Shown: piece by piece, positions 5,396 to 43,369 of the stretch
Position numbering within the stretch: the stretch's first letter is position 1
Layout: every line of letters begins with the position of its first letter
Source: Bacillus sp. ISL-55
GTDB lineage: Bacteria; Bacillota; Bacilli; Bacillales; Cytobacillaceae
Assembly (NCBI RefSeq): GCF_018613155.1
Contig: NZ_JAGGQU010000033.1
Span: 1-43,369 of the forward strand
Length of the DNA stretch: 43,369 nucleotides
Direction: 5' to 3'
The notes under the pieces: generated by a model
What the model saw: the letters and a program-made list of their open reading frames with translations, nothing else
The model's database searches: none
Told to the model about the DNA's origin: nothing
Translations under genes and position numbers: made by a program

Positions 5396-5554
5396 CTTTC
5401 GGATTGAACGGAACCCTTATAGAGGAGGAATCTCTTGCATAAGGGTCTCTTTCCGATTGAACGGGACCCTTAGAGAGGGGGAATCTCTTGCATAAGGGTC
5501 TCTTTCCGATTGAATGGGACCCTTATGGATCTCAAGTTGCTTGCATAAGGGCAT
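5396..5554. repeat. Tandem array A: three 53-bp units with an inner inverted repeat
   Basis: Units start at 5396, 5449 and 5502, an exact 53-bp step. Units 1 and 2 differ at only a few bases; unit 3 is diverged in its second half. Across each unit junction AAGGGTC (for example 5441-5447) faces GACCCTT (5465-5471) with 17 bases between, giving a hairpin or a two-fold protein site. The array fills the gap between the sigma-fusion start (5286) and the terminator of the diguanylate cyclase gene. No coding frame is credible in this gap. Confidence 0.85.
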
Positions 5555-5583
5555 CTTACGGATGATAATTCCTTATTTAACCC

Positions 5584-5615
5584 AAAAAAGCACTAGGGTA
5601 TGCCCCCGTGCTTTC
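5584..5615 (-). terminator. Intrinsic terminator after the diguanylate cyclase gene
   Basis: AAAGCAC and GTGCTTT enclose a GGG/CCC inner stem. Read on the minus strand the hairpin ends in a run of T, 7 bases past the stop at 5622. Confidence 0.75.
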
Positions 5616-5621
5616 AAATCT

Positions 5622-6698
5622 TTATAATGTTGAAATTTTATTTCTTCCTGTCCGTTTTGATGTATATAAGGTGTCGTCTGCTTGTTTGATGAATTCTTCT
5701 AAGCATTGAGTTGTTTCTAGATAGGTTGAGGCACCAAGGGAGATGGTGATCTTGATTTCCTTGCCATTTGGTAAGGAGAATCGATGATTTTCCACTATTC
5801 CCCGGAGGCGTTCTGCAATTTCCAGCGCTTGAGCATAGGAACAATTCTTTAATAACAGTGAAAATTCTTCACCGCCATTTCTTGAGACAATATCACTTGG
5901 GCGTGAGCAGCTGATTAACAGTCCTCCTAATTGCCTTAAAACTTCATCCCCTGCTTGATGACCATACGTATCATTGACCTTTTTGAAGTGGTCGATATCA
6001 ATCATTAGCAACGATAATTTTTCATTAAGCTCCTGGGCACTTTCTATACTTTCATTCAATGACGAATCGAACTGCCTGACATTATTTAACCCCGTAAGGA
6101 AATCTGTTGCCGATTGGTTTTTCAGCTGCATAAACATTTGGTTCGACTGAACGATATACCCTGCCAAAAAATACACCAAAACTCCCGATATGGTTGTAAT
6201 AACCCAATAGTTAACCAAAATTTGATACACTTGATCTGAAAATCCCATCAGATACAAAAAGCCGCATGAAATCGTAATTAAGCTAATTAATCCCATAACC
6301 GACCACTTAAAAAAGTCCGAACTCTTCACCTTTTTTTGGACCAGTGCGGCAAACACTGCAATAATAAACATTATGAGCACAGTGACTAGAAACGTTTCCA
6401 AACTCCCATCAAAAAATACTAGTCTGCTGATATTGATTATACTCGTGGCTACGAAAGCCGGCACGAACCCTCCATAAAAAGCAGACAGCAGGATCGCGAT
6501 ATGACGCAAGTCCATCATGATGACAGGAGTAATCTGGATACTAAAAGCCATTAACACTGAACCAAGTATTCCCGCCAATGCTCCAAGTTTCAACTTTTGA
6601 AGAGTTGTATCTATCTCCGGATTGCTTTTAAATAAACTACCGCCTATAAACAAAAATGTAATAACAAAACTAGCATGTATAAAAAAATCTTTCAGCAA
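5622..6698 (-). CDS. dgcK: Membrane diguanylate cyclase, LytS-YhcK-type sensor plus GGDEF (DgcK-like)
   Basis: The 358-residue protein has an N-terminal block of 5-6 membrane helices (about 1-190) of the 5TMR LytS/YhcK kind and a C-terminal GGDEF domain. It should make cyclic di-GMP from two GTP. The active-site loop reads RNGGEEF, an accepted GGEEF variant. RPSD, five residues upstream, is an intact I-site for product inhibition, so both catalysis and feedback look functional. Length and domain order match Bacillus subtilis DgcK (YhcK), about 359 residues. The start is TTG 6698 with AGGTGG 7 bases upstream. A terminator follows and no cyclic di-GMP target gene is adjacent. Confidence 0.88.
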   Translation of the reverse strand: MLKDFFIHASFVITFLFIGGSLFKSNPEIDTTLQKLKLGALAGILGSVLMAFSIQITPVIMMDLRHIAILLSAFYGGFVPAFVATSIINISRLVFFDGSLETFLVTVLIMFIIAVFAALVQKKVKSSDFFKWSVMGLISLITISCGFLYLMGFSDQVYQILVNYWVITTISGVLVYFLAGYIVQSNQMFMQLKNQSATDFLTGLNNVRQFDSSLNESIESAQELNEKLSLLMIDIDHFKKVNDTYGHQAGDEVLRQLGGLLISCSRPSDIVSRNGGEEFSLLLKNCSYAQALEIAERLRGIVENHRFSLPNGKEIKITISLGASTYLETTQCLEEFIKQADDTLYTSKRTGRNKISTL

Positions 6699-6990
6699 GG
6701 TAATACCACCTAAAACGTGAATTTCGACTTCCTTTTATAGAATACGAGATAAAGGACAATTTTACTATAAGTTTCCGGAGTTTTCCTGATACCGCTAACT
6801 AAAGTATAGGAAGGCCATCAATATAAACAGAGGGACGGTAAGGTACAATTTTACCTGAAACAACCTTTTAAGAATGTGGTCTTCTTCACTTTCAATTTAA
6901 CTAGCGATAATTTCCAGTTAGCAGAATTCTTATGTAAAAGTAATACACTTGGAGTGGAGTGATCGGTTCTAAAAGAGCTTGTCATTTGTG
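6699..6990. other. Intergenic stretch without a recognisable gene
   Basis: Between the diguanylate cyclase start and the promoter of the coiled-coil gene I see no credible frame on either strand and no strong hairpin. The phrase ACAATTTTAC occurs twice, near 6760 and 6848. Confidence 0.5.
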
Positions 6991-7019
6991 GTGACTTATT
7001 TTACTGGACTGGGTATAAT
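6991..7019 (+). promoter_or_regulatory. Likely sigma-A promoter of the coiled-coil gene
   Basis: GTGACT (6991-6996), a 17-base spacer and a perfect TATAAT (7014-7019) lie 29 bases before the ATG at 7048. Confidence 0.6.
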
Positions 7020-7047
7020 AAATTCATAAAGAAGGAGGTGAAATGAG

Positions 7048-7407
7048 ATGGAGAAAATATTGAATAAAATTCTAGACCGTTTGGATTCGTTCGACAAGCG
7101 CTTTGATTCTGTTGATGCACGTTTTGAGTCTATGGAGAATCGGTTGGGGTCTATGGAGAGCCGGTTTGGGTCTATGGAGAGCCGGTTTGGGTCTATGGAG
7201 AGCAGGTTGGACAATTTAGAAAATGGCCAGCAAACTATCCTTTCCGAACAGAGTGAAATGCGGAGGGAAATGGGATTTTATTATGGTACCTTGATGAAGA
7301 AGCTTGATGAAACGAAATCAGAACTATCGAGTGAAATCAAGCATGTCTCCAATGTTCAGAAACAGCATCAGGATGTTTTAGAGATACTGAATGAAAAACA
7401 GCAGTAA
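7048..7407 (+). CDS. Heptad-repeat coiled-coil protein with 21-bp in-frame DNA repeats
   Basis: The 119-residue hydrophilic protein is almost wholly coiled coil. Residues 1-60 run as 7-residue steps (LDSFDKR, FDSVDAR, FESMENR, LGSMESR and so on) with hydrophobic residues at fixed heptad positions. The four SMESR/SMENR steps come from near-identical 21-bp DNA units at about 7127-7210. No membrane segment or signal is seen. AAGGAGGTG stands before ATG 7048 and a good TATAAT promoter precedes it, so the gene is real. The function is unknown; it resembles the repeat-rich tail-fibre-like or cytoskeletal coiled-coil proteins of Bacillaceae in style only. Confidence 0.8.
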   Translation: MEKILNKILDRLDSFDKRFDSVDARFESMENRLGSMESRFGSMESRFGSMESRLDNLENGQQTILSEQSEMRREMGFYYGTLMKKLDETKSELSSEIKHVSNVQKQHQDVLEILNEKQQ

Positions 7408-7500
7408 GATTGTTCAATGCGCTCTCTTTAATATCCTTCTCACATAATACTTCTTAAGAATCCTCGAGAATACATTTGCTTTCCTTATTTTATCCAAAAC

Positions 7501-7553
7501 CAAAAAGTGCCTGTCCCCAGGTGCATCATCACTCCGGGGACAGGCACTTTTTA
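7501..7553 (-). terminator. Long stem terminator after the 556-residue protein gene
   Basis: AAAAAGTGCCTGTCCCC (7502-7518) pairs with the matching arm ending at 7552, with T runs on both sides. It can therefore stop transcription from both the coiled-coil gene and the minus-strand gene ending at 7559. The same stem sequence recurs at 20311. Confidence 0.85.
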
Positions 7554-7558
7554 TGTCC

Positions 7559-9229
7559 TTACTCTAACCCTTGGATCACTAACTCTTTCACTGGCAGGAA
7601 GGTTTCGCCGGTATCCATGTATTTGAGATTGAGCTGGTCGCCTTCTTTTACATAGATCGCCAGCGGGTTCGTTTCTGATGAAATGAGGTAGTTCTTTTTG
7701 TTATCCAGCAGGATCGAAACAATCGTGAAGTCGCCTGTTTTTTCTTTGTAGACGCGCAGCACGGTTCCGCTCGTTTGCTTTTCCTCTGCCTTCGAACTTC
7801 CATCCACTGTTCCGCCGCCATGCTGCAATGCGGTTTTATACTTTTTCAATGCTTCATTAGGAGTATTGCCAAACACCGAAATTTCCGGGTTTGCTGCCGA
7901 TACGATAAAGTAATTTTGCAGGAAGCCATTCGAATCAAGAACAGGCGTCAGCCAGCTTGCTTCTCCATAGAAATTGTAGAGAATCGGCATCTCGCCATGC
8001 CATTTTTTCTCGATGAACTTCTTCTCAATAATTTGCAGCGCCCCTTCAGAATCCATATAGGACTCTTCAAGATTGCCAGTATAGAAGGTCGCCTTCCCAG
8101 TCCTTGCGTTCGTCAAGGCATACCCAAGCATGGAGTCTACCCCTTCTTTCGGACTGGTAAAATCGGTGAAATAATACATATCGCCATTTTCATCAAAAAT
8201 TGGACTGACCTGGGCTTCGGTTCCTTCATCTGACGGAAGTTTTATATCCGTCTTGCCAAACACGCTGTTCCAATAGCCATGAATGTAATTACCATAATAG
8301 CTGTTCTGCAGACTCACAGCCTCGGGAGAAACAGCGCCGTCAATGAATTCTGGAACATCGGCCTGCGCATAGGATTCCGTTTTCCCAGAATCAGGATCCA
8401 CTACGACAACCCCTTTTACATCAAAACCATTCCTGGCTGAGATGAATTCACCGAAGGTCCTGATATAAAAAGGTTTGCCTTCATCATCGATCTCAAGCTG
8501 AGTGTCTCCATAGAAAATTGCCTCTGGATACTGCAAACGGATATGGCGTTCGACATTTTTATTGAAGAACGAAGAAGGTGTATAAACCATGTCTGTTTTC
8601 TTGAATTTTGGATTTGCTGATGAATCGGTAGCGCTGATTGTAAAATAACCCGGTGTGGACTTGCCGTTCCACCATTTGAAAAAGCCTGAGAATTCAACCG
8701 GAGCAATATAGACGTACTCTCCATTGACCTTCTGGATCTGCAGATTTCCGAGCTCATAATAACTCGTATTCGGAACCTGGCCGAATGCCTTTTTCATTTT
8801 ATTTCGTGCAAAATGCGGAGGGACACTCGCTGGTGTTTCCTTTTCATCAAAAGTCGAGATTTCCATCTTCTCCGCCATTTTCGCAGACTCATATTTTTCC
8901 TCTGCGTTAAAAAGAAAAGCGATCATAAAATACGCGCCCAATAGCAGGGTAAGCAAAAACAAGCTCCCCTTAATCATCCTTTCCTTGCCAGCCGCAAAAA
9001 AAGTGCCGGCAAACGTGATCACAATCGCAAACGGCCACAGAGAAGACAGGTTGCGGTCCAAATTAAACGCATAATAAAACGCAAAAGTCCCAACCGTAAA
9101 CAGGACAATCACAGCAATCAAAAAGGCAGATGTCATTTTCCTGTCCTTCTCTACCCCTTTAGAAAAAGGAGTAAGAATCAGAGCAGAAGCCAATCCAACC
9201 AAAAGAGCAAACAGAATGATATTTCCCAT
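7559..9229 (-). CDS. Uncharacterised membrane protein with large exterior domain
   Basis: The 556-residue protein starts with four closely packed hydrophobic helices (about 3-22, 33-56, 62-80 and 87-108) and continues as a soluble domain of about 440 residues. In it, segments such as PIFDENGDMYYFTDF and LTPVLDSNGFLQNYFIV read like repeated beta-rich PepSY-like or propeller-like strands. The last 60 residues (GTVLRVYKEKTGDFTIVSILLDN) look like a small OB- or SH3-like barrel. AAGGGGATT precedes ATG 9229 and a strong terminator follows. I recall homologues in other Bacillus genomes only as hypothetical proteins, so no function is offered. Confidence 0.8.
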   Translation of the reverse strand: MGNIILFALLVGLASALILTPFSKGVEKDRKMTSAFLIAVIVLFTVGTFAFYYAFNLDRNLSSLWPFAIVITFAGTFFAAGKERMIKGSLFLLTLLLGAYFMIAFLFNAEEKYESAKMAEKMEISTFDEKETPASVPPHFARNKMKKAFGQVPNTSYYELGNLQIQKVNGEYVYIAPVEFSGFFKWWNGKSTPGYFTISATDSSANPKFKKTDMVYTPSSFFNKNVERHIRLQYPEAIFYGDTQLEIDDEGKPFYIRTFGEFISARNGFDVKGVVVVDPDSGKTESYAQADVPEFIDGAVSPEAVSLQNSYYGNYIHGYWNSVFGKTDIKLPSDEGTEAQVSPIFDENGDMYYFTDFTSPKEGVDSMLGYALTNARTGKATFYTGNLEESYMDSEGALQIIEKKFIEKKWHGEMPILYNFYGEASWLTPVLDSNGFLQNYFIVSAANPEISVFGNTPNEALKKYKTALQHGGGTVDGSSKAEEKQTSGTVLRVYKEKTGDFTIVSILLDNKKNYLISSETNPLAIYVKEGDQLNLKYMDTGETFLPVKELVIQGLE

Positions 9230-9361
9230 AGAAAAATCCCCTTTTATTTTTGTCCTCTACATATACGAATCAACTGAGGTAAAGTTTCATGAGGATTATG
9301 TTGCAAGGAAAGCGTACGTAAAAAATTTGATGACCTTCAGGATGGTAAAACTTGGGCGAAC

Positions 9362-9454
9362 GTGCAATTAACATGTCTGAGCGTGCAATTATAGCTTATA
9401 TTGGTGCAATTATCCTACACCACAGCGCAAATATTAAAGATGACCGTGCAATTA
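9362..9454. repeat. 21-bp periodic repeat, five GTGCAATTA units
   Basis: GTGCAATTA occurs at 9362, 9383, 9404 and 9446, and a degenerate copy GCGCAAATA sits at 9425, giving an exact 21-bp step. Two helical turns separate neighbours, so all copies face the same side of the DNA. The rest of the 9230-9560 gap shows no other structure. A 97-residue open frame across it (9352-9645) is only the translated repeat and is not annotated. Confidence 0.8.
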
Positions 9455-9560
9455 TCGAGTGGAACGAACAGAATAATTTTTCCAGCTTATTTTTCAGCTT
9501 CGATTTTCAGCAATATGCAACTCCAATCGGGATATATCCATATTTAGTAGAACTAGTTAA

Positions 9561-9584
9561 GAAGCACGGATCAGTCCGTGCTTC
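9561..9584 (-). terminator. Hairpin after the MFS transporter gene
   Basis: GAAGCACGGA (9561-9570) pairs perfectly with TCCGTGCTTC (9575-9584). The T tract behind it on the minus strand is weak. Confidence 0.65.
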
Positions 9585-9600
9585 AACTCATCACCAACAG

Positions 9601-10794
9601 TTACTCATTTTCCTTTTTTTCAATAGAAATACTCCATATCGTTAACAGGATAGCCCCCAATACCATTACTGCTCCAATCCACGGTGTGTGGATCAATCCA
9701 ATCGAGTCAACAATTACTCCTCCGACAAACGCACCGATTGCGATTCCGAGATTGAAAGCTGCTATATTCATTGCTGATGCTACGTTAACAGCTGCTGGAA
9801 CATAGCGTTCTGCTAATCTAACAACCAATACCTGCAAGCCTGGTACATTCATGAACGCAAACATTCCCAGCAAGAAAATAGTAATGACTCCAGCCACCTT
9901 GAAGGGTGCTGTGAAAGATAAAATGACGAGAATGATGGCCTGGACAATGAACATCCATAATAATGCCTTTAATGGATTTCGATCAGCGGCTTTCCCTCCG
10001 ATGGCATTCCCAATCGCTACAGCAATCCCATATACCAACAGGATTATGCTCACGACTTTCGGGGCAAAGCCGGTTATCTCCTGAAGAATTGGAGTCAGAT
10101 AAGTGAATGCGACAAAGGTTCCGCCATATCCAAGAGCTGTAATCGCAAATGCCAGCAGCAAAGGCCCATTGCCCAATATTTTTAGTTGATCACTGAATTT
10201 TGCCGGCGGCGCAGGCTTAATATTTTTTGGTATAAGGATTGCACTTGCGATAATTCCTACTACACCTAATAATGCCACTCCCCCAAATGTCGCTCTCCAG
10301 CCGAACAGTTGGCCGATGAAGGTCCCAAGCGGCACACCAGTTACGGTGGCGACGGTCAATCCCGTGAACATAAAGGCGATCGCGCTTGCCCTTTTATCCT
10401 CAGGGACAAGGTCAGCGGCAATCGTCGAGCCTATTGAAAAGAAGACTCCATGAGAAAAGGCCGTGATGATCCTTGCTGCCAACAGCAGACCGAAGCTGGT
10501 CGAAATGGCTGCGATGGAATTTCCGATGATGAAAATGACCATTAAAGCCATAAGCAAGGTTTTGCGGCTCATTTTATTGGTCAAAGCTGTTAAAATCGGT
10601 GCTCCAAATGCTACACCCATCGCATATCCGGATATTAACAAACCAGCTAAAGTGATCGAGATATTGAGATCATCTGAAATCGTCGACAATAATCCAACAG
10701 GTACAAATTCAGTCGTACCGATTCCAAAAGCACTAATTGCCAAAGCCAAAAGGGATAGTGATCCCTTATTATTGTTTCGTGTATGTGAACTCAT
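9601..10794 (-). CDS. MFS drug/sugar efflux transporter, DHA1 AraJ/YtbD-like
   Basis: The 397-residue protein has twelve predicted helices and the DHA1 signature FGIGTTEFVPVGLL in helix 1. A loop with NKMSRKTLLMALM follows helix 2, and helix 5 carries the antiporter-type motif TVATVTGVPLGTFIGQLFGWRATF. These features place it with AraJ/YbcL/YtbD-type proton-coupled exporters. It is divergent from an HxlR-family regulator gene (11027), an arrangement I recall for ytbD and ytcD in Bacillus subtilis, so substrate-induced export under that regulator is likely. AATGGAGG precedes ATG 10794 and is embedded in a folded leader (10799-10885). The substrate is unknown. Confidence 0.9.
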   Translation of the reverse strand: MSSHTRNNNKGSLSLLALAISAFGIGTTEFVPVGLLSTISDDLNISITLAGLLISGYAMGVAFGAPILTALTNKMSRKTLLMALMVIFIIGNSIAAISTSFGLLLAARIITAFSHGVFFSIGSTIAADLVPEDKRASAIAFMFTGLTVATVTGVPLGTFIGQLFGWRATFGGVALLGVVGIIASAILIPKNIKPAPPAKFSDQLKILGNGPLLLAFAITALGYGGTFVAFTYLTPILQEITGFAPKVVSIILLVYGIAVAIGNAIGGKAADRNPLKALLWMFIVQAIILVILSFTAPFKVAGVITIFLLGMFAFMNVPGLQVLVVRLAERYVPAAVNVASAMNIAAFNLGIAIGAFVGGVIVDSIGLIHTPWIGAVMVLGAILLTIWSISIEKKENE

Positions 10795-10798
10795 AAAA

Positions 10799-10885
10799 AG
10801 GTATCCTCCATTGCAGTTTTTTAAGTTGACCAGTGAAGGCGCCTTTCACGTTTGACCAACATGAATGCAATTATGAAGGATACCT
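10799..10885 (-). promoter_or_regulatory. Nested inverted-repeat leader covering the MFS gene ribosome site
   Basis: In the minus-strand transcript AGGTATCCT (rc of 10877-10885) pairs with AGGATACCT (rc of 10799-10807). Inside this, ATTGCA pairs with TGCAAT, and GTGAA/TTCAC flank GGCGCC. The ribosome site GGAGG (rc of 10805-10809) lies within the closing stem, so the fold would hide it. Two TTGACCA copies (10826 and 10852) are also present. The element could act in RNA, as DNA operators, or both. Confidence 0.55.
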
Positions 10886-10896
10886 GATCGCTTGAG

Positions 10897-10969: not shown

Positions 10970-11026
10970 GAAATGTAGGGTTATAATGACACTACAAACA
11001 ATCGGAAAGATAAGGAGGGTGTATTT

Positions 11027-11386: not shown

Positions 11387-11397
11387 TGTTATTAAGC

Positions 11398-13917: not shown

Positions 13918-16269
13918 ATGAACCATAACAAATCTCTCGAAGACTGGATTGCAGAGTGCATTCAATTGAGAAATGAGAATGCCTACCTTAAAAGGCAAAT
14001 TGCTAGTCTTTTACAAAAGGAAAATCCAAAACTTAATATTATAAATGAACCTTATTTCATTACGAAACAATCCCCTCTTGAGGCAAAAGTACAGCTATAC
14101 AGAAGTCTTTTCAAAGGGAGACCGGACGTATATGCCCTTCGTTGGGAAGCAAAAGATGGCAGAGCAGGTTATTTGCCTGCTTGCGCCCATGAATGGGATC
14201 GACCGATTTGTCAAAAGCCAGAAATAAAATGTTCTGAATGCCTGAATCGTACTTTATTGCCTCTTACTAACCAGGTTGTTATTTCCCATCTAAACGGTGA
14301 GCATACAATTGGTTTGTATCCCATGCAGAAGGATGGCACGTGTTCATTTTTGGCTGTAGATTTTGACAAAGCTAACTGGCAAAAGGATGTCCAAGCATTC
14401 ATCCAAGTCTGTACCAATTTAGGATTGCCGTTTAGTATCGAGCGATCAAGATCAGGAAATGGTGCTCATGTTTGGTTTTTCTTTTCTGAGAAAATCGAGT
14501 CTAGTCTTGCTCGAAAGCTAGGCTATACCCTTCTGACAAAAACATTGGAGCATCACCACGAAATTGGCATGTCATCATTCGATCGTATGTTTCCCAACCA
14601 GGATACTCTTCCTAAAGGTGGATTCGGTAATTTAATTGCCCTTCCATTACAAAGACAGGCAGGTCTGCAAGGCAATAGCCTGTTTGTCGATGAGAATTTC
14701 AATCCTTATCCTGACCAGTGGATTTATTTATCCTCTGTAAAGAAGCTTTCTAAAAGAGAATTGATGAAATTCACCGATGATAGAAAATCACCAAGCCCTT
14801 TCTCAGTCAAGACAATTGACCTCGTCAAACCACTGGAAGCCTTTCCAGAGAGCATAACGGTACATATAAAAAACGGCCTTTATATTAATAAGCAATATCT
14901 GCCTTCGTCCCTTTTAGAAAAAATAATGACAACTGTTACTATTAAAAATCCCGAGTTCTATAAGGCTCAGTCTAGGAGACTGCCGACATCATCCATCCCA
15001 AGGGTAATCAAATGTTATACAGAGAATGAAAAATTTCTTATCCTCCCACGTGGCAGTAAGGCTGATTTAGACAAGTTGCTAGAGGATTCAGGAATTGAGG
15101 TTCTATACAAAGATGAAGCATTTGAAGGAGAGCCTCTCGAAACTCGATTCACTGGTCAACTGACATCCCAACAATCTGATGCCGTTTCTCAACTTCTGTT
15201 ACACGACAACGGTGTGCTGTCAGCCACTACCGGCTTTGGAAAAACAGTTACTGCGGCTGCGTTGATTGCAGAACGCAAGGTAAATACACTAATCATTGTC
15301 GATAAAACTCAACTGAAACAACAATGGATCAATCAACTTAAATCCTTCTTAACCTTACCTGAAAAGGAGATTGGCGAAGTGGGAGGAGGGAAACGGAGGA
15401 TTACTGGTAAGGTTGATGTGGTAACACTCCAAAGCCTCGCCTACAAAGGGGAAGTGAAGAGCTTTATCACCCAGTACGGACAAATCATAGTCGATGAATG
15501 CCACCATATTTCAGCCTTTACTTTCGAGCGAGTTTTAAAGCATGTACGAGCAAGATATGTTTATGGGCTAACAGCTACCCCTACCAGAAAAGATGGCTTG
15601 CATCCGATTATCTTTATGCAATGCGGACCAATCCGATATAAAGTCGATGCCAGAAGCCAGGCAAAAGTTCGTCCTTTTGTCCATAAACTTATCGTCAGGA
15701 CTACAAGATTCAGTTCTAAATCAGAAAACATCCAGGAGCTTTATAAACTTCTCTCAAAGGATGAAAAGCGTAACCAGATGTTATTTGATGATGTGTTACA
15801 TGCTCTTGAAGAAAAGCGTTCTCCTATCATTTTGACTGAGAGAATCGAACACCTGGAATATTTACATGATAAGTTCAAAGGCTTTGCTAAAAATATAATC
15901 ATGCTCTCAGGAAATGTATCTAAAAAGGAGCAAAAAGTCGCTTTAGATAGGCTTGTAAACACTTCTGATACAGAAGAACGCCTTGTCATCGCAACTGGAA
16001 AATATATTGGTGAGGGATTTGATGATGCACGGCTTGATACCTTATTTCTTGCTATGCCAATTTCTTGGAAAGGCACATTGCAACAATATGTAGGCCGCCT
16101 CCACAGGCTACATGATCAAAAGCAGGAAGTACGAGTATATGATTATGTAGATAAAAAAGTCCCCACACTTGAAAGGATGTTCGCCAAGAGACAGAGTGGA
16201 TATAAAACGATGGGATATGTTACAGCAGATCAAAATAAAGAGAATAACGAGCAGATGAGGTTGTTTTAA
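13918..16269 (+). CDS. TOTE-type archaeo-eukaryotic primase fused to an SF2 helicase
   Basis: The 783-residue protein has three parts. Residues 8-35 are a coiled coil. Residues 55-290 match the primase domain of TOTE conflict systems: a Cys/His cluster (C89, H91, C98, C105, C108), metal-binding D148-F-D150, S179-GNGA-H184, and the following FGNLIALPLQ. Residues 405-745 are a superfamily 2 helicase with TTGFGKT (437-443), DECH (526-529), TATP (552-555) and Q723-x2-GR-x2-R730. All catalytic positions are intact. The C-terminus is QMRLF, a sliding-clamp-binding pattern. No nuclease gene of a complete TOTE system is adjacent. GAAGAGG precedes ATG 13918. A priming and unwinding role in defence or repair is inference. 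Confidence 0.87.
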   Translation: MNHNKSLEDWIAECIQLRNENAYLKRQIASLLQKENPKLNIINEPYFITKQSPLEAKVQLYRSLFKGRPDVYALRWEAKDGRAGYLPACAHEWDRPICQKPEIKCSECLNRTLLPLTNQVVISHLNGEHTIGLYPMQKDGTCSFLAVDFDKANWQKDVQAFIQVCTNLGLPFSIERSRSGNGAHVWFFFSEKIESSLARKLGYTLLTKTLEHHHEIGMSSFDRMFPNQDTLPKGGFGNLIALPLQRQAGLQGNSLFVDENFNPYPDQWIYLSSVKKLSKRELMKFTDDRKSPSPFSVKTIDLVKPLEAFPESITVHIKNGLYINKQYLPSSLLEKIMTTVTIKNPEFYKAQSRRLPTSSIPRVIKCYTENEKFLILPRGSKADLDKLLEDSGIEVLYKDEAFEGEPLETRFTGQLTSQQSDAVSQLLLHDNGVLSATTGFGKTVTAAALIAERKVNTLIIVDKTQLKQQWINQLKSFLTLPEKEIGEVGGGKRRITGKVDVVTLQSLAYKGEVKSFITQYGQIIVDECHHISAFTFERVLKHVRARYVYGLTATPTRKDGLHPIIFMQCGPIRYKVDARSQAKVRPFVHKLIVRTTRFSSKSENIQELYKLLSKDEKRNQMLFDDVLHALEEKRSPIILTERIEHLEYLHDKFKGFAKNIIMLSGNVSKKEQKVALDRLVNTSDTEERLVIATGKYIGEGFDDARLDTLFLAMPISWKGTLQQYVGRLHRLHDQKQEVRVYDYVDKKVPTLERMFAKRQSGYKTMGYVTADQNKENNEQMRLF

Positions 16270-29461: not shown

Positions 29462-29493
29462 AAAAAAGCCTTGCTCTATGGCAAGACTTTTTT
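29462..29493. terminator. Bidirectional terminator between array B and mntA
   Basis: GCCTTGC and GCAAGAC form the stem with A6 on the left and T6 on the right, so it can work from either side. On the minus strand it would be the first good stop after ilvD and the array. Confidence 0.75.
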
Positions 29494-29529
29494 AAAAAAA
29501 TTAAAGCCATTCAATCACTTTTGTTATTC

Positions 29530-30320
29530 TTGACAGCTTTGGCCCCTTAACCTTAAAAGCTGTCACAATAACGTGGGTTTCTTGACAGCTTTGGCCTCTT
29601 AACCTTAAAACCTGTCAAAATAACGATGGTTTCTTGACAGCTTTGACCTCTTAACCTTAAAAGCTGTCAAAATAACGGTGGTTTCTTGACAGCTTTGACC
29701 TCTTAACCTTAAAAGCTGTCAAAATAACGAGGGTTTCTTGACAGCTTTGACCTCTTCACCCTAAAACCTGTCAAAATAACGTAGGAATCTTGACAGCTTT
29801 GGCCTCTTCTCCTTCAAACCTGTCAAAATAACGATGCTTTCTTGACAGCTTTGGCCTCTTAACCTTGAAACCTGTCAAAATAACGATGGTTTCTTGACAG
29901 CTTTGACCTCTTCTCCTTCAAACCTGTCAAAATAACGGTGGTTTCTTGACAACTTTGGCCTCTTAACCTTAAAAGCTGTCAAAATAACGTAGGAATCTTG
30001 ACAGCTTTAGGCTCTTCTCCTTCAAACCTGTCACAATAACGATGGAATCTTGACAGCTTTGCCCTCTTCTCCCTCAAACCTGTCAAAATAACGATGGTTT
30101 CTTGACAGCTTTGGGCTCTTAACCTTAAAAGCTGTCAAAATAACGATGGTTTCTTGACAGCTTTGACCTCTTCTCCATCAAACCTGTCAAAATAACGTGG
30201 GAATCTTGACAGCTTTACCCTCTTCTCCCTCAAACCTGTCAAAATAACGATTGTTTCTTGACAGCTTTGGGCTCTTAACCTTAAAAGCTGTCAAAATAAT
30301 TGAGGAATCTTGATAGCTTT
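29530..30320. repeat. Tandem array B: sixteen 52-bp palindromic units
   Basis: TTGACAG starts at 29530 and recurs every 52 bp (29582, 29634, and so on to 30258), with a decayed copy TTGATAG at 30310. That is fifteen full units and one partial, without a single inserted or lost base. Each unit holds TTGACAGCTTT facing AAA(G/C)CTGTCAA across about 14 bases, then the linker ATAACGATGGTTTC or a close variant. Two centre types alternate irregularly: TTAACCTTAAAAG (perfect arm match) and TTCTCCTTCAAAC (one mismatch). No coding frame is supported in this stretch of nearly 800 bp. Confidence 0.95.
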
Positions 30321-30330
30321 TGCCTCTTTA

Positions 30331-30457
30331 CGCTGGCTTCCAGCGCGCGTGACCAGCTCTCTGTGAATACGGAATCCCATTCCTCTACCTCGTCATCGAG
30401 TTATCTACTAAATTTCCAGGAACCTCGTCATCGAGTGATCTATTAAATTTTCAGTAT
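30331..30457. repeat. Hairpin and 35-bp direct repeat at the 3' end of ilvD
   Basis: CGCTGG-CTT-CCAGCG (30331-30345) is a perfect short hairpin without a T tail. CCTCGTCATCGAGT begins at 30388 and again at 30423, a 35-bp step, and the second copy runs into the last codons of ilvD. The first copy therefore looks like a duplicated ilvD gene end. Confidence 0.7.
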
Positions 30458-32110
30458 GCCACCTGTGCTTGCTGAGGTGACCAGCTTTGAATATCGAGCC
30501 AGATAGCCTTTCTTGATTTTCGGCTCTGGCTGTGTCCATTGAGCTTTCCGATCATTCAACTCTGCTTCAGGAACCTCCAGTGAAATGGTTCTTTCCTCTA
30601 AATCAATGAAAATAGGGTCTCCATTCCCCACAAACGCGATTGGTCCTCCTTCGGCCGCTTCCGGGGAAATATGGCCGATGGAAATGCCCCTTGAGGCACC
30701 TGAGAATCTGCCATCCGTAATCAGGGCGACCTTCTTTTCCAGTCCTCTTCCGGCAATGGCGGCTGTTGGCGCCAACATTTCCGGCATTCCCGGACCGCCT
30801 TTTGGTCCTTCATAGCGAATGACAACCACATGCCCTTCACGTACATCGCCACTTTCGATTCCAGCCAAAGCCTCATCCTGAGATTCGTAGACAATCGCTT
30901 CACCTTTAAAAGTCTTGATGGACGGGTCCACCGCTCCTACCTTGATGACCCCTCCATCTGGTGCGATATTTCCAAACAGAATCGATAATCCGCCGACAGG
31001 GCTATACGCCGTTTCCTTGTTGCGGATGACGTCACCATTTAACACTTCCGCATCCTTTACATTCTCGTAAAGGGACTTACCGGTGATGGTGATCCGGTCC
31101 GGGTGTACAGCTCCTTCCATTTCACAAAGCTGTTTGATAATCGCGCTGACACCGCCGGCATTATGGACATCCTGCATCGAATAATGGGAAGCCGGGCTGA
31201 TTTTAGACAAATAAGGAATCCGTTTAGCCACTTCATTAATCCGGCTCAAATCATAGTCAATTTCCGCTTCGTTCGCGATTGCCAGCGTGTGGAGCACCGT
31301 ATTTGTCGATCCGCCCATCGCCATATCAAGCGCAAAGGCATCATCAATCGTTTCCTTGGTGATAATGTCTCTCGGCTTAATATCCTTTTTTACTAAATCG
31401 ACCAAATGACGAGCTGCCTCATAGATTAATTTATGGCGTTCTTCAGAGGTCGCAACCAGCGTTCCGTTACCAGGTAGCGCGACTCCGAGCATTTCCATAA
31501 GTGAATTCATCGAGTTGGCAGTGAACATGCCCGAGCAAGAGCCACAGGTAGGACAGGCGTTCTTTTCGATATCCAGCAATTCCTCTTCAGACATTCTTCC
31601 AGATTGATAGGCACCGACGCCTTCAAATACTGACACGAGGGATAAAGGATCCCCTTTGCTGGACACACCCGCCTCCATTGGACCGCCAGAAACAAATACA
31701 GAAGGAACATTCGTCCTTACTGCCGCCATCAGCATCCCGGGTGTGATCTTGTCACAGTTCGGGATGTAGAAAACTCCATCGAACCAGTGGGCATTAATCA
31801 CGGTTTCAGCCGAATCTGCGATCAGCTCCCTGCTTGGCAAAGAATATCTCATGCCGATATGTCCCATCGCAATCCCATCATCGACCCCGATGGTATTGAA
31901 CTCAAACGGAATTCCGCCGGCCTCTCTGATCGCGTCCTTGACAACATCAGCGAACTGCCTCAAATGAACATGTCCCGGAATAATATCGATATACGAATTG
32001 CAAACGCCAATAAACGGCTTTTCAAGATCCTCTAATTTTACGCCGGTTGCATAAAGCAAGCTTCTATGTGGAGCGCGATCGACTCCCTTTTTAATCATGT
32101 CACTGCGCAT
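30443..32110 (-). CDS. ilvD: Dihydroxy-acid dehydratase
   Basis: IlvD dehydrates 2,3-dihydroxy-3-methylvalerate and its isovalerate analogue in isoleucine and valine synthesis. The 555-residue protein is full length. Iron-sulfur ligands are expected at C37 (IGVCNSYID), C119 ([11 protein letters not shown]) and C192 ([14 protein letters not shown]). The C-terminal half contains [12 protein letters not shown] and [24 protein letters not shown], where serine and metal-site residues lie. A T-box leader precedes it, so transcription rises when the cognate tRNA is uncharged. It stands alone rather than in a full ilv-leu operon. The stop is followed by a short direct repeat and a 16-unit tandem array, with no clear terminator between. 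Confidence 0.96.
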
Positions 32111-32195: not shown

Positions 32196-32478
32196 ATAAA
32201 AAAATCGCCCCTAAAATAGGGACGAGTTTAACTCGCGATACCACCCTAGTTCCGTCATGGAAAGAAAAATCCACTTTACGGCACTCCATCAACGTACAAT
32301 CATACGCATTCCTTTTAACGGCGGACTACCCGGCAATACTTACTAAAAGATTCAGCATCGCATCTCGGAGATGATTTTCGGATCAGTTCTGAACATCGGC
32401 TTGCACCATTTACCGACTCTCTGTAGAACAGGGCACTCATCTTACTCTTCTCGTCATCGACTTTGTTATCAAAAAATT
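32196..32478 (-). promoter_or_regulatory. T-box riboswitch leader of ilvD
   Basis: On the minus strand the T-box sequence AGGGTGGTATCGCGA (rc of 32233-32247) is followed by the terminator stem CGTCCCTA/TAGGGGCG and T7. Upstream, AGAGAGTCGG...GGTG...GCCGATG is the stem I distal part. GAACTGATCCGAAAA would be the 3' side of the specifier loop, in which ATC (isoleucine) is the best fit to the gene; this assignment is tentative. A consensus TTGACA (rc of 32512-32517) and TATAAT (rc of 32483-32488) lie before it, but 23 bases apart, which is too wide for a normal promoter. Confidence 0.88.
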
Positions 32479-38414: not shown

Positions 38415-38558
38415 ATCCACCTCTCCAAACTGTATGACTGAATTTGTTTTTATAGTCATAGATTAACACAGAGTTGTTCAATCCTCAATAAAGAATGCAA
38501 TTTGTACTTTCCGGTATGAATCAACCCTTGTCCAGACAAACACCAGATTAACAAACAA

Positions 38559-38584
38559 AAGCACGGGAGCGTGCCCCGTGCTTC
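38559..38584 (-). terminator. Intrinsic terminator of the Bce-like transporter operon
   Basis: AAGCACGGG pairs with CCCGTGCTT around AGCGTGC; on the minus strand TTTTGTTTG follows. It abuts the permease stop. Confidence 0.8.
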
Positions 38585-38585
38585 C

Positions 38586-40526
38586 TTAAAGAGATTCCCG
38601 GATCACTTTCTTCGAATGAACGACTGAAAGGACCGCAAAAATCGAATACAATGCTGTATAAAGCCCCATGACAATCAGCATTGGCCACCACAGTTCGGTG
38701 CCGAAGAAGAACCAGCCGGATTTGACGGCGAAGTAGCTGTGCAGAAGGCCGATTGCTAAGGGGATGCCGAAATTGAATGCCTGTTTTGCCTGGATCCCTT
38801 TTAGCAAATCTCCCTGGGTGAAACCGAGTTTCCTTAAGATTGTATAATTCGGCTTCTCGTCTTCTGTCTGATCCATTTGTTTAAAATAAAGGATGCACCC
38901 AGACGTGACGAGAAAGGTCAGCCCGAGGAAACCGACAATGAACATGACAAGACCCATCTTTTTCTTTTGGATATTTTCATTGTCCAGGCGTGATTCGTTC
39001 CTAGCCGCTTCATGATACTTGTTTTCATTGAACAGTTCATTCGCCTTCACTAACTCATTCTCGTTTTCAATATTAATTCCAATATACAATGAAGGATCTA
39101 TTTGGATGGAAGGGTCCAGATCACTTTTTAGTTTCGTGAATACGGACTCATCGACTACAGCAACCGGAGAACCGCCGAAATAACGGGATACCGGATATTC
39201 CTTTTCCATTCCAATGTACTGCAAAGGAATACCACGTTCCTTTCCGATGATCTCAATCGGACCCGAATCTTTCATGGAGATGAATTTCATCATAATATCA
39301 CTGTAGCCAGTCAGATAAGCTTCATCCTTGCTCACTTCCCTTTGACCTTCAGACTTTTCGCTAATGACCGAAACGCCCATCGATTTAGGATCCTGGGTGT
39401 ACTCCTCCATCTTCAATCCGATGATTTCTTCTGCATTCATCACCGCCTGAAGAACCTCGATCCTTTTCTCCGTATACTCGATCTTCTTTGACTCCAATTT
39501 TTCCATAAAGTCAGCAGCAGACCCTTCATCAACAAAGGCAAAGTTTTCGGGAACTATATTTTTCGCACTCTGTTCTGCGGAATAATAGGAGATATAGCTT
39601 AACGACAATAAGCCAATCGCAAGCGCGGATACCGTCGTGATGATCGTTAACACCAACGCATTCGACTTCATCCTGAACATGATGGAGGATAACGACAGCA
39701 CTTCATTAATATTCAAATACCCATCTTTCTTTTTCCGGATGAGGTTGGCAATGAAGCTGACAGATCCTTTGTAAAACAGATACGTCCCGATGATGACCGA
39801 TGCTAAAATGAACACCATCGCGATGAAGAGTTCGTTCATTGTAGTGAAGTCCCCTTCGAACAACTTGGATGATACATAATACCCGATCCCGATTAGTGTA
39901 ATGCCAAGAATTCCGATCAACATCTCCCAAAAAGAGATCTTTTTTGCCCGGCCTTCAGCCTTTGAAACGACCCTGAACAATGATAGAATGCTTTGCCGTT
40001 TGATGAAAAGATAGTTTAACAGCAGCATCAACACATAGATGACCGTAAAAACGACCAGTGTCTGCACGAGGGCTTTTCCGGAAAAATGTAGCCTGGCAAT
40101 CCCTTCAACCTGGGTGACTTTGAACAAAATCATGATGATTAGCTTGGAAACTGAAAAGCCAAGGAAAACGCCCGCCAGTAAGGAGCCATAGTAAAGGAGG
40201 AAGTTTTCCACACTCAGGATCCTGAAGATTTTGCCCTTCGTCATCCCGACCAGCTGGAATAAGCCGATCTCCTTGCTTCTTCTTTTGATAAAAATGTTAT
40301 TGGCGTAGGTGAGAAATATCGCTACAATGCCGACGAGCAGAACAGATGCCGATTTAATGGCCGCCCCGCCTTTAATCGAACCCTTCGTTTCATGCATGGA
40401 CGGGTCATATTGAAGCGTGACAAAGGCGAAATACAGGGCGACACTGAACATCAAGGCAAAAACATACAGATAGTAATTTTTAAGGTTCTTTTTCAAATTG
40501 CGAAGAATCAGCTGATTAACGCTCAT
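38586..40526 (-). CDS. BceB-like ABC permease (FtsX type, ten helices)
   Basis: The protein of 646 residues has ten predicted membrane helices arranged 1 + 3 + 4... with the FtsX domain at both ends. A large exterior domain of about 200 residues lies between helices 7 and 8 (around 325-525). This is the hallmark of BceB-type permeases that recognise peptide antibiotics bound to cell-wall lipids. The cytosolic part contains [22 protein letters not shown], typical of the group. I place the start at ATG 40526, overlapping the ATPase end by 11 bases. It works with the ATPase, and as the true sensor for the histidine kinase. The peptide recognised cannot be read from sequence. Confidence 0.92.
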
Positions 40527-41277
40527 TATGCACACCGCCCAATACGCTCTGGGTCTTCATGATGTCCTTGAAAAATTCCTGTCTCGTCTGGTCACCTTTA
40601 TTCAATTCGGTGTAAATAAGACCATCCTTTATAAAAATAACCCGGCCGCAGTAGCTTGCCGCAACTGGATCATGAGTGACCATCAGAATCGTCGCCTGCC
40701 GTCTTTGATTCAAGTCACGCAGTTTATTCAACAGGTCTGAAGCCGATTTCGAATCCAGCGCGCCAGTCGGTTCATCCGCGAAAATGATGCTCGGGTCATG
40801 GATAAAAGCTCGTGCAGCGGACGTACGCTGCTTTTGCCCACCAGAAATTTCATTTGGATATTTATTCTTCAACTCCAGGATTCCGAGTTCAGTAGCAATC
40901 GCTTCAAACTTTTGATCCGCTTCCTTCTTAGGCGTCTTGCTGACGGAAAGCGGCAAAAGGATATTTTCCTTCACTGTCAGCGTATCGAGCAGATTGTAAT
41001 CCTGGAATAAAAAGCCCAGGTGCTCCTTGCGGAATTCTGCCAGCTGCTTTTCCTTCATCCCGGTAATCTCATTTCCTTCAATCTTGATCGAACCATTGGT
41101 GACTTTATCGATCGAAGAGAGGACATTCAAGAGCGTCGTTTTGCCTGATCCAGAGGCACCCATGATGCTCACGAACTCCCCTTTGAAAATTTTCAGGTCG
41201 AGCCCTTTCAGCACTTCCTGTTTATTGAACTTGTTTCCATATGTTTTATGAAGTTTGGCCGCTTCTAATAAAATCAT
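40516..41277 (-). CDS. BceA-like ABC ATP-binding protein
   Basis: The protein of 253 residues has Walker [14 protein letters not shown]-loop [22 protein letters not shown], signature [15 protein letters not shown], Walker [18 protein letters not shown] and switch H in MVTHDPVAA. These sequences are characteristic of the MacB/BceA group paired with FtsX-type permeases. ATG 41277 is chosen because AAAGGA precedes it; the frame opens two codons earlier at a GTG. A consensus TATAAT (rc of 41306-41311) and a dyad (41364-41381) lie upstream. They suggest that the transporter genes have their own inducible promoter, separate from the regulator genes. Confidence 0.95.
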
Positions 41278-41305
41278 GTTCACACATCCTTTCTATGATA
41301 GATTC

Positions 41306-41311
41306 ATTATA
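41306..41311 (-). promoter_or_regulatory. -10 box of the Bce-like transporter genes
   Basis: TATAAT on the minus strand lies 29 bases before the ATPase start. No good -35 box stands 16-18 bases upstream, as expected for a promoter that depends on an activator. Confidence 0.6.
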
Positions 41312-41363
41312 AAATCCTGCCTGTTTTCCTTCCTTCGATTCAGGTAACAAATCAGCAAAGGCC

Positions 41364-41381
41364 TGTGACATTTTTGTCACA
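41364..41381 (-). promoter_or_regulatory. Candidate BceR-type operator
   Basis: TGTGAC-ATTTTT-GTCACA is a perfect six-base dyad centred about 63 bases upstream of the TATAAT at 41306-41311. It overlaps the stop codon of the histidine kinase gene. Bce-type response regulators bind dyads of this general kind upstream of the transporter genes. Confidence 0.65.
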
Positions 41382-42381
41382 TGCCTGTTATCCGGACAAA
41401 ATCGTTGCTTTTAGGGAAGGTCAGCTTGAACGTGCTTCCTTTGCCTGGTGCCGATTCCACATCAATCCTGATTTTCAGTGTGTGCGCCGCTTTCCTGGCC
41501 AGATACAGTCCCATTCCGGTTGCTGCATGGTCCTGGTGATGGACTGTTGAGGTAAATCCCTTTTCAAAAATGCGCGGGAGGTCCCTGGAATCGATTCCCC
41601 TGCCGGTGTCGGCAATTTCGAGGGTGGTTTGCCCATCCTGCTGAGCGCTTTTTATTTGAATATCCGATGCTTCACTGTATTTCACGGCATTCGTCAGCAG
41701 CTGCCTGATGATAAACGCAAGCCATTTGGCATCCGTCATCACCTCTGTCGATTGCAGATCGATATCAAAGCCGATCCCTTTTTGGATGCACCACGACTGC
41801 AGCGTTTTGACCTCGCCAAAAATCACACTCTCCAAATCGGCCTGCTCTATGTATAAGTCATTTTCCATGAAAGGAATCCGTCTTTGATGCAGCTGCTGGT
41901 CCAGTAAAAGGTGAATCCGCAGCCATTCATAGGTCATTTCTTTTTTCAGTGTCAGGTCCTCAAGCCGGTCAATCATCAAACTCAAAGCCGTCAGCGGTGT
42001 TTTCACCTCATGGATCCAGGAAAGCAATTCATCCTTTTCCTCGTCCAGTATCCGTTCATTCTCGGAAACTGATTTTTTCAGCCCCTTGAAATGGCGGGCA
42101 ATGCTATCTGCAGTTATTTTTTCAAAAGGACTGAGGAATTCCCTGTTTGAAAAATCCAGAATATCCTCTGCTTCTTCAAGCTCCTGATAAAATTTCATTT
42201 CCTTTTGATAACGCATCACTAAAAAAATCACAAAAATGATCAGGGATAGAAAAATGTAATACAGAATCGACGTGAGCGCTACTGCGGAATCTATGGACGC
42301 GATGAAAACAGCAAGGAACTGAAGCAGCAAGAATAACAGGATCCAGCTCCGCCGTTCCTTTAGGTATGTCATGAACATCAT
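41377..42381 (-). CDS. BceS-like intramembrane-sensing histidine kinase
   Basis: The 334-residue kinase has two membrane helices (about 13-30 and 36-56) separated by only a few exterior residues, the mark of intramembrane-sensing kinases that listen to a Bce-type transporter. The phospho-acceptor is H124 in SWIHEVKTPLTAL. ATPase boxes follow: N-box FIIRQLLTNAVKYS, G1 EIADTGRGI, F-box GFTS and G2 GMGLYLARKAA. Its ATG overlaps the regulator stop (ATGATG). There is no PAS or HAMP domain. The stop codon lies within the candidate operator of the transporter genes. Confidence 0.94.
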   Translation of the reverse strand: MMFMTYLKERRSWILLFLLLQFLAVFIASIDSAVALTSILYYIFLSLIIFVIFLVMRYQKEMKFYQELEEAEDILDFSNREFLSPFEKITADSIARHFKGLKKSVSENERILDEEKDELLSWIHEVKTPLTALSLMIDRLEDLTLKKEMTYEWLRIHLLLDQQLHQRRIPFMENDLYIEQADLESVIFGEVKTLQSWCIQKGIGFDIDLQSTEVMTDAKWLAFIIRQLLTNAVKYSEASDIQIKSAQQDGQTTLEIADTGRGIDSRDLPRIFEKGFTSTVHHQDHAATGMGLYLARKAAHTLKIRIDVESAPGKGSTFKLTFPKSNDFVRITGM

Positions 42382-43079
42382 CCATTGTCCTCTTCGACAG
42401 CCATATATCCCTGCCCGACCTTCGTTTCAATTTTATGACCCAGCCCGAGTTCATCCAGCTTTTTCCGCAGTCGATTGACGTTCACCGTCAGCGTGTTGTC
42501 GCTGATGAACCGCTTATCATCCCACAAGCTGTTCATCACCTCATCACGGCTGACAATCTTGTTTTTCTGCTCAATCAGCAATTTTAATATGAATATCTCA
42601 TTCTTCGTCAATTCAATCCGGCCATTTTCATTTTCAACCGTATTTTTATCATAATCAATCGTCGCCCGGCACCAGGTTTTTAGCTGATTCTGCGTCGAAT
42701 TGTAATTATAGGCACGGCGCAGCATTGCCTGAATCTTGGCAATCAGCACATCAAAATGGAACGGCTTCTGGATAAAATCATCTGCCCCCAGCTGCATCGA
42801 CATCACCATGTCGGTTGGGTGGTCCCGTGAGGAAAGGAAAATAATCGGCACATTCGAATGCGACCGAATCATCCGGCACCAATGAAAACCATCAAACCTC
42901 GGCAGCTGGATATCAATAATCACCAGATCCGGCTTTATTTTGCTAAAATCACTCATCACATCACCAAAATCCGTAACCCCATACACCTCATAAGACCATT
43001 GCGTCAGACGCTCACGGATCTCATTGAACAACGACGCATCATCCTCAATCAGCAAAAGCTTCAACACCATTACCACCAC
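42378..43079 (-). CDS. BceR-like OmpR-family response regulator
   Basis: The 233-residue protein has a receiver domain with acidic pair ED at 12-13, phospho-acceptor D56 (LVIIDIQLP) and the lysine of IQKPF near 105. It also has an OmpR-type winged helix (TKNEIFILKLLIEQKNKIVSRDEVMNSLW... TLTVNVNRLRKKLDELG). It would switch on the adjacent transporter genes. The start is uncertain between GTG 43079 and ATG 43070; no strong ribosome site decides it. Together with the kinase it forms a two-gene unit directly upstream of the transporter genes. Confidence 0.93.
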   Translation of the reverse strand: MVVMVLKLLLIEDDASLFNEIRERLTQWSYEVYGVTDFGDVMSDFSKIKPDLVIIDIQLPRFDGFHWCRMIRSHSNVPIIFLSSRDHPTDMVMSMQLGADDFIQKPFHFDVLIAKIQAMLRRAYNYNSTQNQLKTWCRATIDYDKNTVENENGRIELTKNEIFILKLLIEQKNKIVSRDEVMNSLWDDKRFISDNTLTVNVNRLRKKLDELGLGHKIETKVGQGYMAVEEDNG

Positions 43080-43164
43080 ACTTCCACATCTATCACCTTT
43101 ATTTTAAAGGAAGTATTTTCTATATACCAGAATTAGTAGGGGGTGTGACAGGAGCAGATAGTTT

Positions 43165-43369
43165 AGGAGCGGGCTTATTGGTTACCTTTTTTCTTAGTTT
43201 CTGGGTTTTTCGGGCACCAATCGGCCTTATTGGTGACCTCTTTTTTCAGTTTCTGGATTTTTCGGGCACCAATCGGCTTTATTGGTGACCTCTTTTTTCA
43301 GTTTCTGAGTTTTTCGGGCACCAATCGGCTTTATTGGTGACCTCTTTTTTCAGTTTCTGAGTTTTTTGG
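43165..43369. repeat. Tandem array C: at least four 52-bp units, continuing beyond the window
   Basis: CACCAAT starts at 43215, 43267 and 43319, an exact 52-bp step. Each is followed after seven bases by ATTGGTG (43229, 43281 and 43333). A first, half-decayed unit shows ATTGGTTACC at 43177, again 52 bp earlier. The linker is ACCTCTTTTTTCAGTTTCTG and similar. The array begins about 90 bases upstream of the response regulator gene and is cut by the window end. Confidence 0.92.

Follow-up and report, generated by a model that had tools for sequence, protein, structure and literature searches.

How can tandem arrays with different sequences keep nearly the same repeat length? The question is raised by three arrays in contig NZ_JAGGQU010000033.1 of Bacillus sp. 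ISL-55, which was analyzed over its full 43,369 nucleotides (the window) and is one contig (C27) of a 69-contig, 4.52-Mb genome. An initial annotation had taken them for an undescribed class of repeat, but they are the 52-nt satellites of Bacillus already published by Subirana and Messeguer (2021; PMC8161180), as characterized in the available text of that paper. The arrays thus belong to a known class, and what appears to be new is a common TGTC/GACA core in many of its members, the layout of its dyad and its orientation to the replication fork. The core and its spacing are fixed, the arms of the dyad pair, and the arrays have a preferred location and turn over between congeners. Their orientation follows the fork, very strongly for one family (f1) and more weakly for the others.

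Three arrays with one architecture

Array 1 (5396..5551, no strand assigned) belongs to the ATAAGGGT family (f4) and has 2.9 units at a 53-bp step according to Tandem Repeats Finder (TRF). Its dyad is ATAAGGGTCTCTTTC-5-GAACGGGACCCTTAT, with one inverted repeat per unit. Array 2 (29527..30328, minus strand), of the GACAG family (f1), has 15.4 units at a 52-bp step (86% matches, score 1084) and is repeat throughout, unlike clustered regularly interspaced short palindromic repeats (CRISPR), which have unique spacers. Array 3 (43170..43366, minus strand), of the ATTGGTGACC family (f5), has 3.8 units at a 52-bp step (93% matches) and reaches the end of the contig, in line with the "4 or more" copies first counted. 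Its dyad, GGGCACCAAT-7-ATTGGTGACC, has a 10-7-10 layout. The fraction of 100 shuffled units with an equally good inverted repeat was 0.00, 0.03, and 0.00 for arrays 1, 2, and 3, respectively, and TRF and the shuffle test agree that the three arrays exist with a 52–53-bp step and one inverted repeat per unit. A common architecture is supported. The arrays had also been called unrelated, and they do differ in sequence, but each is part of a dispersed family (32, 238, and 19 matches across the genome for arrays 1, 2, and 3), and arrays 2 and 3 are alike in dyad spacing, with a common GTC...GAC spacing in our own reading of the inverted repeats.

A peak of repeat periods, for which a test had been proposed, is real and sharp and lies at 51–53 bp. 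TRF was applied to 28 stretches, none longer than 20 kb, of 19 congeners (546,504 bases); they were not picked for repeats, but 10 of them lie around ilvD. Of the 31 arrays found there, 22 have periods of 51–53 bp. The same periods were seen for 16 of 34 arrays in stretches of the own genome, after removal of the three families used for choosing them. These latter stretches (except C26) were picked around family matches, which biases the shares of the families, and the core was the basis for picking loci L121-L150 and L170-L249. A flat distribution of periods was not seen in the sampled stretches. The period is set by the family, not by the class: the step is 53 bp in 15 of 15 ATAAGGGT arrays and 52 bp in 50 of 51 arrays of the TGTC-core families and in 12 of 12 ATTGG arrays. 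The "fixed period" of the initial annotation thus holds as a peak and within a family, not for the class. At least five families of near-equal step are present in this genome and its sampled relatives. Among 86 sampled arrays of period 51–53 bp, from this genome and 15 of the 27 sampled relatives, 77 have an inverted repeat matched by at most 5% of shuffled units. Two of the 86 lie inside a short predicted open reading frame (ORF), the class being otherwise non-coding.

Two repeats of similar step stand apart. A further 52-bp family, GCAGAAGG...TGCATTGCCC, has the same step with little or no inverted repeat and no dyad (L011:1352-1715, L016:6194-6317, L068:2128-2242, and G018 L099:1712-1965). 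A 51-bp family at L079:12789-13206 has the dyad TATAGAA-3-TTCTATA, unlike the core families.

A common core and its paired arms

The families f1 (GACAG), f2 (CGGACA), and f3 (GACATTT) all contain TGTC and GACA at a 19-base gap, followed by a 25-base return gap. Array 2 contains this TGTC-N19-GACA core, while the ATAAGGGT family does not fit it. As search pattern we used two consecutive units, TGTC-N19-GACA-N25-TGTC-N19-GACA, with 16 fixed bases. Of 397 genomes of the order, 69 contain the pattern, as do 30 of the 135 genera sampled, with 615 matches in this genome, against a chance expectation of ≈0.001 per genome by our own arithmetic. As a control, the pattern read backwards gave a single match (in G013). 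A five-core version gave at least 113 stretches in GTDB contigs. The 80 of these among the matches listed are nearly all titled Bacillus or related genera, including Neobacillus, Mesobacillus, Robertmurraya, Cytobacillus, Litchfieldia, Heyndrickxia, Caldibacillus, and Ureibacillus. The counts of the two-unit core are patchy, with 0, 90, and 100 in three sampled genomes of a single genus (g10) and 63–615 in ten genomes of the window's genus.

The core can also be recognized in sequences published by others. Five of the 27 consensi available from Subirana and Messeguer (2021; PMC8161180) have the exact N19 core (coagulans twice, litoralis, thermoamylovorans, and alkalitelluris). The same tetramers are found at N17 in one consensus and at N18, N20, or N21 in none, and the shuffled mean is 0.01. 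With one mismatch permitted, the numbers are seven at N19 and three at N17. Unselected stretches of five other genera (400 kb) held just four arrays of the step, all in G330 and one of them with the core, so little is learned from them on the core's share of the class.

Arrays almost never occur as single units. Outside called arrays, 22 solo copies of TGTC-N19-GACA were found in 1.35 Mb, inside the range of other spacings (7–31). Spread as single units is therefore not supported, as solo cores are no commoner than other spacings. The one or two degenerate f5 units left at two orthologous sites may be seeds or remnants.

Core arrays were also seen in records titled Chryseobacterium sp. ISL-80 (L170 and L182; JAGGQZ01) and Sedimentibacter sp. 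SX930 (L224 and L234; MUZD01). L182 reaches 91% identity with this genome, so the Chryseobacterium title is probably wrong. Three loci of G330 (L342, L343, and L347) carry long core arrays of 22–28 units that are alignable on both strands.

The sequence between the two tetramers is variable, yet constrained by pairing. In 98 non-redundant arrays (from 177; all with the core by definition, and many loci picked by it), pairing reaches 0.54–0.85 at the six positions that lie within the core, vs. 0.28–0.44 expected, and the next three are unpaired, which gives a 10-7-10 dyad. In 139 units of other genera, likewise picked by the core, four arm positions pair at 0.80–0.93 vs. 0.30–0.42. Pairing is better within an array (4.01 of six positions, 105 arrays) than between arrays of the same genome (2.89), and ten well-paired arrays of this genome have nine left-arm hexamers, some of them near variants. 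The f5 layout is also 10-7-10; one of its feet is GGTC or GGGC, and the opposite foot is GACC or GCCC. In f1 the stem runs outward from the core and not inside it. The unit of the largest group is a 27-bp dyad made up of TGTC and six variable bases, an unpaired centre of seven, six complementary bases and GACA, and the 52-bp repeat step corresponds to about five helical turns.

As single strands, 68 of 68 arrays folded more strongly than their 30 shuffled versions did on average. Folding was stronger on the lagging-template strand in 46 of the 68, most clearly in f1 (23 of 26) and f3 (9 of 9).

Location outside transcription units and turnover

Gene calls for the gap, terminator, and polarity counts are our own greedy ORF calls. 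The 75 arrays with both neighbors visible lie in 24 convergent, 45 tandem, and 6 divergent gaps, compared with 91, 385, and 161, respectively, for all gaps of at least 80 bp (p ≈ 2e-5). The arrays thus avoid divergent gaps. In the 45 tandem gaps a terminator separates the array from its gene in 27 cases, lies past the array in 6, is present on both sides in 3, and was found nowhere in 9; the corresponding numbers for 48 convergent sides are 23, 9, 5, and 11.

Both situations are seen in the window. A terminator-like hairpin (5584..5611, minus strand) lies between array 1 and the gene for a GGDEF diguanylate cyclase (5622..6698, minus strand; Pfam), which places array 1 outside the GGDEF transcription unit. 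A second terminator-like hairpin, with a T-run (29468..29493, no strand assigned), is found past array 2 as seen from ilvD (dihydroxy-acid dehydratase, 30443..32110, minus strand; Pfam). Array 2 is therefore among the minority that may be transcribed, here as part of the 3′ untranslated region (UTR) of ilvD. Both hairpins were identified from the sequence and a terminator scan, with limits set by eye. All three arrays had been placed between minus-strand genes. This is correct for arrays 1 and 2, while array 3 is flanked by a minus-strand ORF on the left side only, being followed by the contig end.

Orthologous sites in congeners include conserved arrays, array-free sites, arrays shrunk to one or two degenerate units, and one swap of family. 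The shrunken arrays are at two f5 sites, where this genome holds six to seven units. In the family swap, with flanks 92% identical, a 53-bp ATAAGGGT array here corresponds in position to a 52-bp GACAG array in congener G007. The sequence turnover claimed at first is thus borne out by one replacement at a fixed site (53 vs. 52 bp), but it was exaggerated, as the same families recur in congeners and the core spans 30 of 135 genera. The empty-site alignment for array 2 gave no clean junction, as the congener DNA beside ilvD does not align, and the alignment of L011:9128 with G014 was poor.

Orientation with the replication fork

With all families taken together, the strand richer in purines coincides with the leading strand in 75 of 82 arrays, 4 of 86 having been dropped for weak GC skew. 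In convergent gaps, where there is no transcription direction, this is the case for 22 of 23 arrays, and where tandem genes run against the fork, five of six arrays follow the fork by purine content. The purine-rich strand is also leading in 57 of 69 core-chosen loci of named species (19 of 88 dropped). In array-free gaps it is leading in 223 of 340. In the window, arrays 2 and 3, both purine-rich on the minus strand, follow the leading strand, which at array 2 is the minus strand by GC skew; array 1, with a purine fraction of 0.51, does not.

The orientation of the aligned repeat itself was followed on replichores, where the counts for f1, f4, f5, and the G330 family were clustered by hand from listings. 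In the complete chromosome of G011 the f1 strand switches between the two halves, as seen for 30 of 31 loci among the matches listed. For six complete genomes, 64 of 72 f1 loci among the matches listed fit with an origin at the contig start. Judged by local GC skew, four of the eight misfits follow the leading strand and four do not, giving 68 of 72 among the matches listed. Because an origin at the contig start failed in G015 and G018, every fitting f1 locus there was checked too, and 14 of 14 follow the local skew. In total, local GC skew was checked for all 20 loci of G015 and G018 and for four others (misfits in G011 and G016, plus a fitting locus from G011 and another from G009); the remaining 48 loci rely on an origin assumed at the contig start.

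Relation to known repeats

Subirana and Messeguer (2021) reported 1886 arrays of 51–53-nt repeats of constant size in 176 Bacillus genomes, with "no sequence conservation" between species and short signals conserved inside a species, and discussed nucleoid proteins and small RNAs (PMC8161180, available text). The arrays studied here resemble these satellites in being non-coding, in their 51–53-nt step, in having several families per genome and in their dispersal over the chromosome. They also share short signals that are present together with their reverse, and the core in 5 of 27 consensi. Of the published trait of at least four repeats, array 2 has 15.4, array 1 has 2.9, and array 3 has 3.8, clipped by the contig end. 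Unlike in the satellites as published, a common core, a 10-7-10 pairing, and a polarity with the fork are found here; the main text of PMC8161180 does not mention palindrome, hairpin, terminator, intergenic, leading, lagging, or orientation. With the core in 30 of 135 genera and 5 of 27 consensi, the "no sequence conservation" of the published description needs correcting, while membership of the class stands. No earlier description of the core, of how its dyad is laid out or of its orientation to the fork was found in the open-licence literature.

Other palindromic elements were compared as well. Repetitive extragenic palindromes (REP) and the bacterial interspersed mosaic elements (BIME) built from them, which are associated with the transposase RAYT (TnpA-REP), are likewise extragenic palindromes with several units in a row. 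BIMEs are also kept out of divergent gaps. Unlike REP/BIME, the arrays described here are almost solely tandem arrays at a fixed step for which a Y1 transposase is dispensable, and no GTAG foot as in REP was seen in the units read by eye. CGTC-tagged palindromic repeats, described from Proteobacteria, Chlorobi, Bacteroidetes, Spirochaetes, and Thermotogae, are similar in being palindromic without a known dedicated transposase, but have other stems, loops, and tags (PMC3733652, available part). IS200/IS605 single-strand transposons share hairpins and a preference for the lagging template (PMC6006769, available part). They differ from the arrays, which are short units without a gene of their own, present also in G006 (506 core matches), a genome without this enzyme family. 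By analogy, lagging-template insertion of IS200/IS605 may serve as a model in which the enzyme family is not required.

A proposed replication-coupled satellite

The location outside transcription units, together with an orientation set by the fork and not by transcription, points to a DNA-level process linked to replication. We give a probability of about 0.4 to the explanation that the arrays are a DNA-level satellite coupled to replication, perhaps via hairpins of the lagging-strand template. The array would then act as DNA rather than RNA. The lagging-strand template, when exposed single-stranded, would fold into a row of hairpins, and via these an array would grow, vanish or be copied to new sites in the same fork orientation. 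A putative protein recognizing the TGTC/GACA foot of the dyad would be responsible for the constant spacing. Such an array is probably dispensable, a satellite and not an essential locus.

A more specific form of this explanation is proposed only tentatively. It would be a replication-coupled satellite system in Bacillaceae and their neighbors, in which a putative hairpin-specific factor reads the TGTC/GACA foot on the lagging template and propagates or anchors the arrays, oriented with the fork, at the five-turn step, leaving the arms to drift as long as pairing is kept. The 52-nt satellites have been called enigmatic for combining a constant length with a variable sequence, and free drift of the arms under pairing would, if true, explain this appearance of constant length without sequence. 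The core, the dyad, and the fork orientation are also practical handles, as they provide a bait sequence, indicate which strand should be probed, and allow comparison of related genomes that have or lack the core. Should the fork indeed read or propagate the arrays, well-studied bacteria would turn out to contain a novel type of non-coding chromosome element.

Several observations weigh against a replication-coupled satellite with lagging-template hairpins. The orientation of alignments is weaker outside f1, with 47 of 65 for f4, 45 of 64 for f5, and, among the matches listed, 17 of 26 for the G330 family (all assuming origins at contig starts). This is no better than the co-orientation of genes with the fork, which is 597 of 768 at the sampled loci, and one of seven G330 misfits checked follows the local skew by alignment. 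For f4 (6 of 13), f5 (2 of 8), f2 (4 of 7), and the others (2 of 5), the lagging template does not form the more stable hairpins. Since the f1 stem lies outside the core, hairpins leave the fixed core spacing of f1 unexplained. In f2 the right end is a lone half-site in five of six arrays, which fits half-site binding to duplex DNA better, and 9 of the 86 arrays of period 51–53 bp have no significant dyad. The fork-specific purine bias could be partly mutational. Finally, no trans-acting factor was found and no insertion event was seen in the analyses made here.

An oriented duplex binding platform with a selected function is a serious, though less probable, alternative to the satellite. In such a platform a protein would sit on the TGTC/GACA half-sites, on one helical face at five turns, and the direction would be read along the fork or the chromosome, as by a nucleoid organizer, a translocase, or a fork-restart site. 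The fixed 23/29-bp geometry of the half-sites is the same in families with inner and with outer stems, which favors binding to duplex DNA, and the lone half-site of f2 and the polarity with the fork also fit. Array edges lie near half-site edges: 53 of 82 boundaries are confined to 17 of the 52 phases, although this range was selected with the data in view. Arrays shorter than 150 bp and three whose core could not be read were left out of this count, and two arrays touch the end of their stretch. A platform is harder to reconcile with the very patchy core counts (from 0 to 100 in g10 and 63–615 in the window's genus) and with orthologous sites that can be array-free or carry another family, and the several arm sequences per genome would demand several specificities. 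The SpoIIIE-type octamers, which we take to be GAGAAGGG and GAAGAAGG, are not enriched, with 0 and 5 copies, respectively, in 24 kb of arrays vs. 21 and 62 in 739 kb. No concentration of f1 arrays at the terminus was apparent by eye in G011 among the matches listed.

Transcribed RNA, as small RNAs, sponges, or 3′ UTR hairpins of the kind discussed by the authors of the 2021 study, is an unlikely explanation. Satellite RNA has been reported from RNA-seq of B. coagulans (PMC8625621, available part), the arms pair, and array 2 may sit in the 3′ UTR of ilvD. In tandem gaps the f1 arrays also tend to be oriented like the neighboring genes (14 to 4). This tendency is, however, accounted for by the fork, since five of six arrays whose genes run against the fork and 22 of 23 in convergent gaps follow the fork. 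Furthermore, 27 arrays in tandem gaps lie past a terminator vs. 6 before it, and the balance of G-T vs. A-C on the sense strand is not significant per array (≈16 to 11 by hand count).

A neutral origin appears quite improbable. Slippage and hairpin-templated correction would keep the palindromes, and strand-biased mutation would give a purine-rich leading strand, all without a trans-acting factor. The two f5 sites with one or two degenerate units vs. six to seven here are compatible with this, as are the array-free gaps that lean the same way (223 of 340) and, in our own combination of results, the f1 G-T mismatches that tend toward the leading strand. It would leave unexplained one core at one spacing in 30 genera, the 52/53-bp step, and the orientation-specific alignment of f1 (68 of 72 loci among the matches listed).

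Movement of a REP/BIME-like palindrome by a Y1 (RAYT or IS200) transposase, which would suit intergenic palindromes that avoid divergent gaps and the documented lagging-template targeting of IS200/IS605 (PMC6006769, available part), is very unlikely: Y1_Tnp was found in 27 of 30 genomes with the core and in 25 of 30 without it (both sets chosen by us) and has no match in core-positive G006 (506 core matches), G014, and G155. From more than 150 matches listed, 30 Y1 loci were examined, one from each genome, and no core array was seen within their ≈3 kb. Single units, moreover, are almost absent. As a requirement, a RAYT/IS200 transposase is ruled out by the Y1-free G006 and by the lack of core arrays at the Y1 loci examined. 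A phage origin was likewise rejected. IMG/VR gave 19 stretches, each with a single two-unit place that no further intact unit continues in step; the number expected by chance was not computed.

Other features of the window

Local DNA identities of this genome are 91–97% to Bacillus sp. ISL-37, 91% to M. selenatarsenatis, and 90–92% to M. boroniphilus (one piece 81%), which suggests by sequence comparison that it may belong to Mesobacillus. On the other side of array 1 from the GGDEF gene, an ORF of 685 aa (3229..5286, minus strand) has a DUF4179 match over the Pfam cut-off and matches to DUF5643 and sigma-70 region 4 below their cut-offs, and is perhaps a sigma and anti-sigma-like fusion. The left neighbor of array 3 is a response regulator (42378..43079, minus strand; Pfam) that adjoins a histidine kinase (41377-42381). 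A T-box leader (32215-32466, minus strand; Rfam) lies upstream of ilvD and is the sole Rfam match in the window at the gathering threshold.

The 3′ end of ilvD carries a 35-bp duplication (30387-30454), and four congeners have related duplications of 42–43 bp (1.9–2.9 copies) in the same place. A 21-bp array of 4.1 units (7123-7208, plus strand) is found within an ORF of 119 aa; this is the second of the repeat lengths that have been published, and the array possibly codes for a seven-residue repeat. An ORF at 13918-16269 (plus strand) contains the primase domain of TOTE conflict systems (Pfam E 1.3e-101) together with helicase domains and is a probable defence-related gene.

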